This document shows, piece after piece, positions 49,637-60,537 of a stretch of DNA of 64,000 nucleotides. Under the pieces are notes generated by a model that made no database searches, had not been told where the DNA came from, and saw only the letters and a program-made list of their open reading frames with translations. The stretch lies in NCBI GenBank assembly GCA_035196065.1, contig CP136575.1:1838769-1902768 (forward strand). The letters are read 5' to 3'. Each line of letters opens with the position of its first letter. Within the stretch, counting starts at the first letter, position 1. Position numbers and translations under genes: made by a program. The stretch is from Sphingobium sp. (GTDB taxonomy: Bacteria > Pseudomonadota > Alphaproteobacteria > Sphingomonadales > Sphingomonadaceae).

Positions 49637-49659
49637 CCCCCTGCCGCAGGCGGGAGGGA
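49637..49659. repeat. Degenerate hairpin repeat between the Smr gene and dapE
   Basis: A 23-base segment beginning CCCCCTGCCGC and ending GGCGGGAGGGA matches about 19 of 23 bases of the hairpin core found around the DUF559 gene at 58818-58840. It fills nearly the whole gap between two converging stop codons and may act as a terminator. Confidence 0.55.
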
Positions 49660-51408: not shown

Positions 51409-51430
51409 CCCCTCCGGTAAGCGGGAGGGA
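51409..51430. repeat. Degenerate hairpin repeat between cupin and GST genes
   Basis: A 22-base segment, CCCCTCCGG then TAA then GCGGGAGGGA, matches about 19 of 22 bases of the hairpin core around the DUF559 gene. It lies between two converging stop codons. Confidence 0.55.
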
Positions 51431-56421: not shown

Positions 56422-57135
56422 TTAGTTCAGTGGCACAAAGCGGGCCAGATCGTGCGGGCCGAGATAGAGTGCATCGTCATGCGCGGCGCTGTTGGTCAGC
56501 GCGTAAAAGGCGCGGGCTTTGGCATCGCTCATCCCTATTTCGCGGTAGAAAGCGATATATTCGAGATGCACGGGATCATCGGCGGCAAAGTCTTCGGCCT
56601 CATAGCCATCCTCGTCGCGCCAGCTATGCACGGCAAATTCGGCGCTGGGCGCGGCGCTGCGCCGAACGCCGGCAAGGAACAACTCCACACCGCCAGAACG
56701 CACCGATCCGCCGGCAGGGACGTGCATGGTGACGCCCTGACGCCGTACCATCCGCGCCAGCGCAAGATTGGCGCTATCGTCACCCGTGCCCGGGCATTCG
56801 ACCATGTCGATCTGGCGCAATGTGGGAAAGGCACGAAGCAAGGCCGAAAATTGGGCCGGCGTATCGCTTTCGATGCTGCCGATCAGTTCCGCCCGGTCGG
56901 CGGAGATCATATGGAACGGGCCGAAACTTGCCAGTGGACTGCGGCTCGGCGCTATTTCGCCAACGACGGGTGCAATTGACCGCTCAGCCACCGAAGCGTC
57001 GGCATCTTCTGACGTGATTGCGACATCATAAATCTCAACCGCTGTTTCCAGCGTTGCAGCATGGCAGGGCACCACTGAAAGGATCAGGGCAAGCAAGCCG
57101 GCAAGGCCGATTGGAAAGGGCTGTTGATACGCCAT
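56422..57135 (-). CDS. Exported COG3904-like protein, ClpP/crotonase-like fold
   Basis: A 237-residue protein with a signal peptide (FPIGLAGLLALILSVVPCHA). Its body resembles the periplasmic COG3904 family with a ClpP-like fold: LRQIDMVECPGTGDDSANLA, RRQGVTMHVPAGGSVRSGGV and ELFLAGVRRSAAP followed by an FAVHSW strand. In family members the glycine/serine turn reads CASACALAFLAG with a serine as possible nucleophile; here it reads GGSVRSGGVELFLAG, so the catalytic residue, if any, is not certain. Function is unknown; it might be a peptidase or a binding protein. It diverges from comM. Confidence 0.7.
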   Translation of the reverse strand: MAYQQPFPIGLAGLLALILSVVPCHAATLETAVEIYDVAITSEDADASVAERSIAPVVGEIAPSRSPLASFGPFHMISADRAELIGSIESDTPAQFSALLRAFPTLRQIDMVECPGTGDDSANLALARMVRRQGVTMHVPAGGSVRSGGVELFLAGVRRSAAPSAEFAVHSWRDEDGYEAEDFAADDPVHLEYIAFYREIGMSDAKARAFYALTNSAAHDDALYLGPHDLARFVPLN

Positions 57136-57299
57136 GGCCGGATGATCATGGCCGCAGGCAGGTTGCAAAACCCTCTGCACCAACGGTTAAGGCGGGCTTA
57201 GCGATGATTTGCCATCAAGCGCTTTCATGCTATCAAGCGCCCAGCGCGTGGTGGCCAAAATGGCGCAAGTTCAAACCCTTTGTCCGGGATTGCTTGGCC

Positions 57300-58808
57300 A
57301 TGGTCGCAACCGTTTCCACCGTCGCTTATCTGGGCCTTGATGCCCGCGCCGTAGAGGTTCAGTGTCAGGTGGCGCCCGGCATGGTGGCCTTTACCGTTGT
57401 TGGCCTGCCCGACAAGGCCGTCGCAGAAAGCCGCGAACGGGTGCGTTCGGCCATTGCCGCGTTGGGCCTGTCGCTGCCGCCCAAACGGATCACCGTAAAC
57501 TTGTCGCCGGCTGACTTGCCCAAGGAAGGATCGCATTACGATCTGCCAATCGCGCTGGCGTTGCTTTCGGCCATGGGGCTGATCGATGGGGAGGCTTTAT
57601 CGCATTATGTCGTGGTTGGCGAACTTGGCCTTGATGGGCGGGTTGCCGCATCGCCCGGTGTGCTGCTCGCCGCGCTCAATGCGTCATCGCGGCAGATGGG
57701 TTTGATCTGCCCCGCCGTGCAGGGTGCCGAGGCCGCCTGGGCAGGGCAGATAGAGGTGGTCGCCGCGCCCGATCTCCTGTCTCTGCTCAACCATCTGAAA
57801 GGGCAGGGGCTGTTGCGTCCGCCCGAACCGGGCCATGCTCAAGCGCCTTTACGTGGCCCCGATCTGAAGCAGGTAAAAGGGCAGGAAACGGCGAAGCGTG
57901 CGCTCGAAATCGCAGCGGCAGGGGGGCATAATCTGCTCATGATCGGCCCGCCCGGTGCCGGGAAATCGTTGCTTGCTTCTTGCTTGCCGGGAATATTGCC
58001 CGAATTGACCCCGGCAGAGGCGCTGGAGGTTTCGATGATTGCGTCGGTCGCGGGCATGCTTGAAGGCGGGCGCATTTCCCGTAATCGGCCTTTTCGCGCT
58101 CCGCATCACAGTGCATCCATGCCAGCGCTGGTCGGCGGCGGGCTGAAGGTGCGGCCGGGTGAAGTCAGCCTTGCCCATCTGGGTATATTATTCTTGGATG
58201 AATTACCCGAATTTCAGAGAGTTGTACTCGATAGTTTACGCCAACCCTTGGAGACGGGTGAGGTTAGTGTGGCCCGCGCGAACAGCCATGTGACCTTTCC
58301 AGCCCGGGTGCAGCTGGTGGCGGCGATGAACCCTTGTCGCTGCGGCCATCTGGGCGATGCCGCGCTTGCTTGCAGCCGGGCACCACGCTGCGCCGCCGAT
58401 TACCAATCCAAGGTTTCAGGCCCACTGCTCGACCGGATTGACCTGCATGTTGAGGTAGAGGCTGTCAGTGCGGCTGATCTGGTTCTGCCATCCCCCGCCG
58501 AAGGATCCGACCAGGTTTCTGCCCGCGTGCTCACCGCGCGGCAAGTGCAGACCGAAAGACTGGCCGGTTCTGGCTGTCGCACCAATGCCGAACTGAACGG
58601 AGAGTTGCTGGATGCCCATGCCACGCCTGATGAACCGGGGCAGCGATTATTGGCACAGGCGAGCGAGGCGATGCGGCTGTCTGCCCGAGGCTATACCCGC
58701 ATTTTGCGCGTCGCGCGCACCATCGCCGACCTTGCCGGCTGCGCGACAACCGGACGGATCCACATCGCCGAGGCGCTATCCTATCGCAGGCAACCGCCGA
58801 GGAACTAA
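57300..58808 (+). CDS. comM: ComM/YifB-family AAA+ ATPase
   Basis: ComM is an AAA+ helicase-like protein that promotes branch migration during integration of transformed DNA. The 502-residue product has the N-terminal domain (YLGLDARAVEVQCQVAPGM, VVGLPDKAVAESRERVRSAI), the Walker A loop MIGPPGAGKSLLASCLPGIL, Walker B LGILFLDELPEF and the zinc-binding AAMNPCRCGHLGD motif of the Mg-chelatase-like branch. ATG 57300 (MVATVSTVAYLG) is the family's start; the frame continues upstream without coding character. Immediately downstream the hairpin-repeat cassette with the DUF559 gene begins. Confidence 0.92.
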   Translation: MVATVSTVAYLGLDARAVEVQCQVAPGMVAFTVVGLPDKAVAESRERVRSAIAALGLSLPPKRITVNLSPADLPKEGSHYDLPIALALLSAMGLIDGEALSHYVVVGELGLDGRVAASPGVLLAALNASSRQMGLICPAVQGAEAAWAGQIEVVAAPDLLSLLNHLKGQGLLRPPEPGHAQAPLRGPDLKQVKGQETAKRALEIAAAGGHNLLMIGPPGAGKSLLASCLPGILPELTPAEALEVSMIASVAGMLEGGRISRNRPFRAPHHSASMPALVGGGLKVRPGEVSLAHLGILFLDELPEFQRVVLDSLRQPLETGEVSVARANSHVTFPARVQLVAAMNPCRCGHLGDAALACSRAPRCAADYQSKVSGPLLDRIDLHVEVEAVSAADLVLPSPAEGSDQVSARVLTARQVQTERLAGSGCRTNAELNGELLDAHATPDEPGQRLLAQASEAMRLSARGYTRILRVARTIADLAGCATTGRIHIAEALSYRRQPPRN

Positions 58809-58815
58809 CCAGATA

Positions 58816-58852
58816 ATCCCCCTCCCGCGTGCGGGAGGGGTTAGGGGAGGGC
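58816..58852. repeat. Hairpin repeat left of the DUF559 gene (R1)
   Basis: A 37-base unit with the perfect stem CCCCTCCCGC (58819-58828), loop GT, GCGGGAGGGG (58831-58840), then TTAGGGGAGGGC. It is identical over 37 bases to the unit at 59309-59345 and inverted relative to that at 59208-59244. It lies just after the comM stop and eight bases before the DUF559 ATG. Confidence 0.9.
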
Positions 58853-58860
58853 CAATCGTT

Positions 58861-59247
58861 ATGAAACGCCCTGAATTTCGGAAGCGCGACATAGATCGGT
58901 CACGGGAATTGCGGCTCGGCGCATCGCCAGCCGAACGAAAACTCTGGCGCGCAGTTTCCGGAGCTAAGCTATCAGGTCATCGCTTTACCCGGCAGTTTCA
59001 GATTGGACCCTATTTCTGCGATCTCGTTAGCCGTTCAGCTAGGTTGGTTGTCGAGATTGATGGTTTTTCTCACGATATCCGGCACAATTACGATGCGAAA
59101 CGGGATCAGTTTTTGAAAACACAAGGCTATCGCGTTTTGCGATTTACAAATGACGATGTGACGCAAAATCTAGAGGGCGTAGTTGAGACCATCATGCTCG
59201 CTCTCGGGCCCTCCCCTAGCCCCTCCCGCAAGCGGGAGGGGGACTGA
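58861..59247 (+). CDS. DUF559-family protein, restriction-endonuclease-like fold
   Basis: A 128-residue product of the DUF559 family, which has a Vsr/PD-(D/E)XK nuclease-like fold. It contains the catalytic-core pattern ARLVVEIDGFSHD (the E-x-D residues), preceded by FQIGPYFCDLV and followed by KRDQFLKTQGYRVLRFTNDDV. The family is common in alphaproteobacteria; its function is not established. ATG 58861 (MKRPEFRKRD) follows the left hairpin closely. The last 13 codons (GPSPSPSRKREGD) and the stop TGA are encoded by the right hairpin repeat, so the C-terminus is set by the repeat. The gene lies between comM and a cyclophilin gene on the opposite strand. Confidence 0.88.
   Translation: MKRPEFRKRDIDRSRELRLGASPAERKLWRAVSGAKLSGHRFTRQFQIGPYFCDLVSRSARLVVEIDGFSHDIRHNYDAKRDQFLKTQGYRVLRFTNDDVTQNLEGVVETIMLALGPSPSPSRKREGD
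59208..59244. repeat. Inverted hairpin repeat at the 3' end of the DUF559 gene (R2)
   Basis: The 37-base unit is the reverse complement of R1 with about three mismatches; stem CCCCTCCCGC (59220-59229), loop AA, GCGGGAGGGG (59232-59241). It supplies the final codons of the DUF559 gene. Confidence 0.9.
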
Positions 59248-59310
59248 ATACGTTACTTAAACATCAACGTCCCGCAAGCGGGAGGGGGACTGAATACGCT
59301 TCTTAAATAT
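59225..59310. repeat. Tandem 40-base duplication after the DUF559 gene
   Basis: Two 40-base units (59225-59264 and 59271-59310) start CCCGCAAGCGGGAGGGGGAC, continue TGAATACG and end TTAAACAT or TTAAATAT, with about three mismatches and six bases between them. The first unit contains the DUF559 stop codon. It looks like a local duplication, not a CRISPR array. Confidence 0.85.
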
Positions 59311-59345
59311 CCCCCTCCCGCGTGCGGGAGGGGTTAGGGGAGGGC
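59309..59345. repeat. Hairpin repeat right of the DUF559 cassette (R4)
   Basis: A 37-base unit identical to R1 (58816-58852) in direct orientation, with stem CCCCTCCCGC (59312-59321) and GCGGGAGGGG (59324-59333). It ends ten bases before the stop of the cyclophilin gene on the minus strand. Confidence 0.9.
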
Positions 59346-59354
59346 TGGTTTACA

Positions 59355-59999
59355 CTATGGCGTTAGCATCCGCCGGGCCGTAAGCACTTTAACCGGTTTC
59401 GCAATCATCTGTCCGCGCATCGCGCCTTCGCCAAGCGTTGGGGAGATGGGGGAATCAAAAATCTGCTTTACGATATCCATGCCTGCGGTAACCCTGCCGA
59501 ACGCCGTATAGCCGGCCCGGGCTTCGGGATCGGTCGATTTCGGATCGGCATCAAGGCTGGGCATGTCCGACAAGAGGATCGAGAAATCGCCACGCGCGGT
59601 CCCGGGTGCCCAGCGCGCCATCGAAATGCTGCCGGCCCTATGCAATATCCCGGTTTGATCGGTTGTCTCATGCGCGATTGGCGGCAGATCCCGCCTCGGA
59701 TCGCCGCGCGTTCCCGCCTGGATCAGCCCATTGGGCTGTTCGCCCCATGCCAATTTCATCGCACGGTAGAATGTGATGCCATCGAAGCGGCGCTGGTCGA
59801 CATAACGCACGAAATTGCGCGTCGCGATCGGGGCCCGCTTCGCGTCGAGTTCAAGCTCTATCGGGCCCAATTCGGTCGCCAGCACGATCTTCACCAGATC
59901 AGGCAAAGGCGCAGGCGGTACGGCTGGCTTTTTCGGCGGAGTAGCGGCGGTGAGCAAGAAGATCAGCGGCAGCGCCGCAAGGACGAATCGGCGGTTCAT
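59355..59999 (-). CDS. Exported peptidyl-prolyl cis-trans isomerase, cyclophilin type
   Basis: The 214-residue product has a signal peptide (FVLAALPLIFLLTAATP) and a cyclophilin domain from about residue 40 (VLATELGPIELELDAKRAPI, RNFVRYVDQRRFDGITFYRA, then the shortened core with GSISMARWAPGTARGDFSIL and GYTAFGRVTAGMDIVKQI). It would isomerise prolyl bonds of exported proteins in the periplasm. ATG 59999 (MNRRFVLAALP) follows a weak GA-rich site; a longer frame upstream is non-coding. Several consensus active-site residues, such as the FHR motif (here FYR) and Q/F, are varied, so activity may be reduced. recX lies four bases upstream. Confidence 0.85.
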   Translation of the reverse strand: MNRRFVLAALPLIFLLTAATPPKKPAVPPAPLPDLVKIVLATELGPIELELDAKRAPIATRNFVRYVDQRRFDGITFYRAMKLAWGEQPNGLIQAGTRGDPRRDLPPIAHETTDQTGILHRAGSISMARWAPGTARGDFSILLSDMPSLDADPKSTDPEARAGYTAFGRVTAGMDIVKQIFDSPISPTLGEGAMRGQMIAKPVKVLTARRMLTP

Positions 60000-60003
60000 G
60001 GCT

Positions 60004-60537
60004 TCAATCTGCCTCCAAAACTGTGCCTGGCAAAGCGGTGACATATTTGCGTGCAATTTCGAAATCATGGCCCGCACGCAGGAAGGCCGCGAATTGTTTG
60101 CGTTTCAGTTCGTCCGTTGCAGCTTCGGTCGCATAAGGGCCAATGCGCTTGCGTTCGGCAAAACGGTCTGCCGATTGCCATTTTTGCGCATCGGTTTCGC
60201 TGCGGGCGTCTTCGGCGTCGTTTTCGGCTATCCCCTTGGCGCGCAGATCTTCATGCACCCGGCGTGCGCCAAGGCCGCGGGCCGCCATGGTGCGGGCGCG
60301 GGCGGCGGCAAAAGCGGCGTCGTCGATATAGCCAAGTCTTGCAAAATCGTCGATCAGCGCATCGATATTGACTGCCTCTTCGCTGTCCCAGCCGCGCTCG
60401 TGCAGCTTGCGGCCAAGATAATCGGACAGCTTCTTGCGACTGGTTGCATATCGGCCAACATAGCGCAGCGCGAGATCGCGCAGCTTCAGCGGATTCAGGG
60501 GCTTGCGCACCTTATTGGGTCTGCGTTCTTCGGCCAC
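60004..60537 (-). CDS. recX: Regulatory protein RecX
   Basis: RecX inhibits or tunes RecA filaments. The 177-residue product is all-helical with three-helix repeats: KLRDLALRYVGRYATSRKKL, DALIDDFARLGYIDDAAFAA (the YIDD-x-A/RFA motif) and GLGARRVHEDLRAKGIAEND. The start is GTG 60537 (VAEERRPNK, no clear ribosome binding site); a longer frame to 60600 overlaps the region before the ligase gene. recA is not in the window. It is followed within four bases by the cyclophilin gene. Confidence 0.88.
   Translation of the reverse strand: MAEERRPNKVRKPLNPLKLRDLALRYVGRYATSRKKLSDYLGRKLHERGWDSEEAVNIDALIDDFARLGYIDDAAFAAARARTMAARGLGARRVHEDLRAKGIAENDAEDARSETDAQKWQSADRFAERKRIGPYATEAATDELKRKQFAAFLRAGHDFEIARKYVTALPGTVLEAD

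Follow-up and report, generated by a model that had tools for sequence, protein, structure and literature searches.

A DUF559 gene enclosed by hairpin repeats in Sphingobium sp. and its probable role as a REP-associated nuclease

The DUF559 protein encoded within a hairpin-repeat cassette of Sphingobium sp. is probably a REP-associated nuclease: it would recognise the hairpin repeats of a single family, and the doublets (REPINs) formed by these repeats would owe their spread and/or upkeep to it. This reading is built on features observed in the genomes, namely the linkage of the gene to the repeat, the specificity of their pairing, the dispersal of the repeat and its co-variation with the intact motif of the protein. 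On a wider scale, and with slightly less assurance, it appears fairly probable that DUF559 proteins form a second class of enzymes that mobilise REPINs, independent of HUH, distributed over many bacterial phyla and each co-evolving with its own hairpin repeat; such a class would account for many C/G-rich palindromic repeats of the "RAYT-less" kind. Bacterial genomes contain few repeats as common as REPs and REPINs; in the open-access literature searched, no enzyme other than the RAYT transposase is connected with their spread, and no published link between DUF559 and REPs was found there, subscription journals and preprints lying mostly outside the search.

The cassette and its protein

The cassette occupies positions 58816-59345 of the window, that is, the whole stretch of 64,000 nucleotides that was analysed. 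REP copy 1 (58816-58852, forward strand) measures 37 nt and consists of the hairpin CCTCCCGCGTGCGGGAGG followed by the tail TTAGGGGAGGGC; the tail ends 8 nt upstream of the ATG of the DUF559 gene (58861-59247, forward strand; 128 aa; PF04480, 4.8e-34), and the purine-rich GGGGAGGG that it contains could act as a ribosome-binding site. REP copy 2 (59207-59243, reverse strand) is inverted, with 95% complementarity to copy 1, and encodes the final 12-13 codons of the gene, whose stop codon TGA (59245-59247) is placed 2 nt past the 37-nt inverted match, just outside the repeat. A tandem duplication (59224-59315) extends over the outer part of copy 2 and joins copies 2 and 3; its two 46-nt units, 59224-59269 and 59270-59315, are identical at 40 of 46 positions (87%), and a partial hairpin is found inside the second one (59268-59289). 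REP copy 3 (59309-59345, forward strand) is a direct repeat, identical to copy 1 at 37/37 positions. A previous reading of this DNA, made from the sequence only, had placed a 37-base hairpin to the left of the gene and a third, identical copy at the end of the block, and both are found as described; its statement that the inverted copy covers the last 13 codons and the stop is correct for the codons (about 12-13) and not for the stop, and the tandem duplication that it reported does exist, with a unit of 46 nt instead of 40. The left neighbour of the cassette is a comM-like gene of the Mg-chelatase ChlI family (57018-58808, forward strand), and the right one is a peptidyl-prolyl isomerase (cyclophilin)-like ORF (59355-60077, reverse strand), which keeps the name given in the earlier reading; both served as anchors for comparison of the site.

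The same hairpin palindrome was found by pattern search at 48 places in the 3.02-Mb genome, the reversed-pattern control giving 0, and ten inverted pairs, spaced 61-78 bp, were identified against a random-placement expectation of 0.08. These doublets, or REPINs, have the layout hairpin-tail ... tail-hairpin and, as single strands, fold as long hairpins far beyond shuffled sequences (z -9.6 and -4.7). The cassette shares with them the outer hairpins and the inward-pointing tails, the gene taking the place of a middle of about 35 nt; it is a REPIN with the DUF559 gene as its middle. Six hairpin matches are present in the window, against 1.0 expected and a maximum of 3 in 100 shuffles; this excess and the 48 genomic places rule out chance. 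The related degenerate hairpins noticed elsewhere by the earlier reading are represented in the window by two isolated ones, at 49640-49657 and 51411-51428, which are real and weak (1-2 mismatches), and are probably decayed remnants of the same REP family. The GTAG tag of classical REPs was found at none of the 48 palindromes, both strands being checked. Profile searches detected no Y1_Tnp, the RAYT domain, in this genome and no Y1/RAYT in four other sampled genomes of the genus; in the order Y1_Tnp is present in only 29/148 genomes, and the repeat-rich G023 and G111 are not among these. A second DUF559 gene of the same genome (G000:C1:1472144-1472464, locus L016) carries on its two sides inverted hairpins of another family, of the CCTCTCCCCTGAAGGAGAGAGG type.

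In the Pfam scan the protein matched DUF559 (PF04480) with 117 bits against a gathering score of 20.6, MTES_1575 being the sole other family matched. D54, E65-x-D67-G68 and H71 are among the residues invariant in 13 diverse DUF559 members; the consensus catalytic (D/E)xK appears here as ExD, with an aspartate at the position of the lysine. The AlphaFold model, obtained from the single sequence, has a mean pLDDT of 71, and its best Foldseek match is 3hrl (E 4e-6, TM 0.84), the solved structure of a putative endonuclease-like protein, ngo0050, from Neisseria, followed by I-Bth0305I and, more weakly, by Vsr. A restriction-endonuclease-like (PD-(D/E)XK) fold is predicted for the protein from these structural matches, in agreement with the PD-(D/E)XK-like fold that the earlier reading had given for DUF559 proteins; the Vsr family profile gave no match in Pfam at E 0.001, and the likeness to Vsr is structural only. 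Nuclease activity is likely but not certain, because the canonical lysine is missing.

Flanking hairpins and repeat families of DUF559 genes

For the order, 163 distinct DUF559 loci were sampled, the strongest matches being taken first, and an inverted repeat scoring at least 18 was searched for on the two sides of the domain; the same test, performed 460-700 nt further out, was the control. Inverted hairpins lie directly at both sides of 131/163 loci, against 0/162 in the control, whose maximum was 13.5; the median flank score over all the loci of the order is 30, and 32/163 genes have no strong flanking pair. The sequence-only reading had made its proposal dependent on the presence of such hairpins at the DUF559 genes of relatives, and on this point it was borne out. 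The wider set consisted of 79 loci from a collection with organism names, mostly outside the family of this Sphingobium and retrieved with an alignment of five closer members as the query: 55 of the 76 usable loci pass the flank test (control maximum 16; one locus with N bases dropped), and the set covers records of Alpha-, Beta- and Gammaproteobacteria, Nitrospira, Gastranaerophilales, Marinimicrobia, Dehalococcoidia and Daviesbacteria. The left REP ends at a median of 8 nt before the nearest start codon, with 57/126 distances within 0-20 nt, and the right REP contains the stop codon or ends at most 12 nt from it at 79/131 loci. Since the REP tail precedes the start codon and a REP encodes the C-terminus, this arrangement suggests that DUF559 expression may also be tied to the repeats.

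The repeat types, assigned by hand-written sequence patterns before tree building, were compared with the DUF559 tree on 104 typed rows belonging to 11 types, with 27 loci left untyped. The types undergo 17 changes on the tree, against at least 55 (mean 63.8) in 1000 shuffles: the hairpin family and the DUF559 clade change together. Several DUF559 genes of one genome can be associated with different families, as in G005, where A, C, C, E, E, E2 and F types are found. One clade of eight genes (L137, L138, L139, L140, L141, L190, L199 and L205) has no flanking repeat, and the ExDG..H motif, kept in nearly all other DUF559 genes, is degraded in 8/8 of its members, which perhaps represent a domesticated, non-catalytic form. 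The E-type repeats (e.g. L351-L355) contain a second hairpin, ACC...GGT, whose stem varies yet stays self-complementary; its structure, and not its sequence, seems to be kept.

In the 37 genomes from which at least two DUF559 genes were fetched, identity within the most similar pair has a median of 51% and reaches 65% at most, and no near-identical copies of the kind seen for an insertion sequence were detected among them. The gene behaves as the single-copy partner of each repeat family and is not amplified like an insertion sequence. The earlier suggestion of a small "mobile or gene-linked element" is retained in its second part only: "gene-linked" fits better than "mobile", because the fetched copies of a genome are never near-identical.

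Dispersed copies and the resident gene

Genome-wide counts were obtained for three repeat types, A, C and E, by exact patterns, which undercount. Among 87 genomes of the family, those in which the cognate DUF559 was detected have the higher counts, with medians of 15, 12 and 12.5 for A, C and E against 0, 0 and 0 in the rest (Mann-Whitney p 3e-8, 6e-13 and 2e-8, in which the relatedness of the genomes overstates their independence). The comparison with genomes having only other DUF559 types gives p 9e-5, 5e-7 and 0.014, with kinship ignored. In the 13 family genomes without DUF559 there are 0-5 A, 0 C and 0-3 E repeats; the equal density of hairpins in genomes lacking the gene, which the earlier reading had named as contrary to its proposal, was not observed.

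The correspondence reaches a single base of the tail. In the five genomes whose cassette carries GGGGAGGG there are 10, 91, 24, 17 and 14 copies with A at this base and 0 with T in each, and T is the majority in 11 of the 12 genomes whose cassette carries GGGGTGGG; the agreement between cassette and genome copies gives a Fisher p of 0.001, on counts that include the cassette's own repeats. Exceptions occur in both directions and count against the reading. Many A-type repeats are found in G092 (35), G033 (32) and G104 (25), where no cognate gene was found, which could be explained only if the gene was lost or a copy lies outside the fetched set. A cassette with almost no dispersed copies is seen in G114 and G105, and the two A-type repeats of G114 are both beside its own gene. 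G092 and G114 offer natural cases for loss of the gene and for recent arrival, respectively.

The two arms of the doublets can be distinguished. The third tail base differs between them, being A in one and G in the other, in 64/69 doublets of several genomes, against 34.5 discordant pairs expected and a largest value of 50 in 20,000 shuffles, the triplets being collected by hand; therefore, a mismatched step is nearly always present at the hairpin/tail junction, and one strand of the doublet hairpin has G-T and the other A-C at this position. Assignment of the mismatch to a Vsr-type T:G site was dropped: G-T/A-C is present, but the context of E. coli Vsr is not reproduced. In the doublets of G023 (L316-L335) one arm starts with TCCCC and has the tail CCG or CTG, and the other starts with TCCCCC and has the tail TTA or TCA, two distinguishable arms that recall the E. 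coli REPs called y and z. By analogy, the arm mismatch may be considered a candidate recognition feature, because the action of TnpA-REP on E. coli REPs also requires a mismatch bulge (PMC8266576).

Proposed mechanism, known systems and alternative explanations

We infer that binding, cutting and copying would proceed in the following way. The DUF559 protein would recognise its own REP doublet as folded DNA, and the repeat, probably extruded or in the form of a single-stranded hairpin, would be nicked at the hairpin/tail junction near the conserved mismatched triplet; host repair or replication would then copy the doublet to a new site, and the gene itself would stay single copy per repeat family.

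The DUF559 system resembles the RAYT (TnpA-REP)/REPIN systems, or "REPtrons", which likewise show a REP-flanked gene, a gene-specific repeat family, dispersed inverted doublets, no near-identical gene copies, more repeats in the presence of the enzyme, and orphan repeats (PMC3116915, PMC8049555, PMC3733652). RAYTs are single-copy and vertically inherited, and it is the REPINs that multiply, not the RAYTs themselves (PMC8049555). However, RAYTs are characterized by a HUH/Y1 fold and by the GTAG tag, whereas DUF559 is predicted to have a restriction-endonuclease-like fold and the tag is found at 0/48 palindromes; moreover, the DUF559 gene is enclosed by the inverted pair, as the middle of a REPIN is, and the C-terminus of the protein is encoded by the right REP. 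Although the DUF559 system is like RAYT/REPIN in the way it works, it falls outside that group, since the tests for the HUH domain and for the GTAG tag found neither. The analogy with REP/RAYT pairs, drawn for the layout at the beginning, holds for the layout, for the family-specific pairing, for the presence of one gene per repeat family and for the absence of a RAYT from the genome.

Among other systems, MITEs and their parent insertion sequence are similar in that the short, non-autonomous copies have the ends of the gene-bearing copy, but the gene-bearing DUF559 element is not amplified (identity among the fetched copies of a genome at most 65%, median of maxima 51%). Vsr and I-Bth0305I share with the DUF559 model the same general nuclease fold (Foldseek); differently from them, DUF559 has no Vsr profile match (E 0.001), and the DNA on which it acts would be a hairpin repeat. 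Caulobacter VsrA is a Vsr-like protein of an alphaproteobacterium, described in a paper where DUF559 is mentioned once; mismatch repair at a methylated motif is proposed for it, and the words "palindrome" and "hairpin" are absent from the paper (PMC12907096). The family-specific pairing with hairpins provides a concrete, testable job for an unassigned Pfam family, and RAYT-less repeats gain a candidate enzyme; for the CGTC repeats, no associated transposase is reported (PMC3733652). If the reading is true, two unrelated nuclease folds arrived at the same relation with palindromic DNA.

The site between comM and the cyclophilin gene was compared among relatives, as had been proposed, and holds the cassette, a single REP or nothing. 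The full cassette is found in this genome and in G166, a single REP, oriented like copies 1 and 3, in G154 and G148, and no such REP in G167 and G179; the divergence among occupied, single-REP and empty sites is too high to call junctions or a target-site duplication at the base level. The occurrence of a single REP in two relatives where two others hold the cassette would fit a homing-type element, in which DUF559 cuts gene-less repeat sites and the cassette is copied in, the REPs being the target and dispersed otherwise; the identical direct repeats formed by copies 1 and 3 around the gene, and the presence of the homing endonuclease I-Bth0305I among the top structural matches, point in the same direction. 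However, a single REP is just what would be left if the direct copies 1 and 3 recombined, and the single-REP site is equally compatible with such a deletion and with insertion beside a resident REP. Homing is unlikely also on other grounds: duplex cutting at dozens of chromosomal sites should be lethal, dozens of near-identical targets should yield near-identical gene copies, whose fetched within-genome identity never exceeds 65%, and the multiplication of the repeats in genomes with the cognate gene is left without an account.

Host regulatory hairpins, acting as terminators or mRNA stabilisers and arising and spreading by recombination or replication slippage, could be merely exploited by DUF559, whose expression could depend on REPs lying a median of 8 nt before the start and at the stop; this explanation appears quite improbable, as it predicts neither a repeat family that follows the DUF559 clade, nor the single-base match of dispersed copies to the cassette, nor the near absence of repeats in genomes without DUF559. 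Spreading of the repeats in trans by a RAYT/IS200-type tyrosine transposase, or by another transposase, has a precedent in the RAYTs of classical REPs (PMC3116915, PMC8049555), but it is very improbable here, given the distribution of Y1_Tnp (none in this genome and in the four sampled genus members, 29/148 in the order, none in the repeat-rich G023 and G111) and of the GTAG tag (0/48). A RAYT acting in trans was rejected on the absence of Y1_Tnp from this genome and from the sampled genus members. Very little probability is also given to a role of DUF559 in defence, or as a self/non-self nuclease, in which the genomic REPs would serve as marks or decoys: the predicted restriction-endonuclease-like fold and a weak PADLOC match to a portion of DpdF (E 0.004) are in its favour, but the gene stands alone between two housekeeping genes, and a gene paired with dispersed doublets is not among the known layouts of defence systems. 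The derivation of REPINs as simple internal deletions of the DUF559 cassette, as in MITEs, was considered as well; REPINs and cassette agree at their ends, but are not consistently alike in the sequence immediately inward of the arms.

Returning to the reading of DUF559 as a REP-associated nuclease, the family is found in 86/148 genomes of the order, with up to ten genes per genome. DUF559 genes are also located on plasmids of Picosynechococcus, Deinococcus, Azospirillum and Sinorhizobium (e.g. NC_010480.1 21085-21426 and NC_015170.1 120805-121122), and these plasmid-borne genes are a possible route of transfer.
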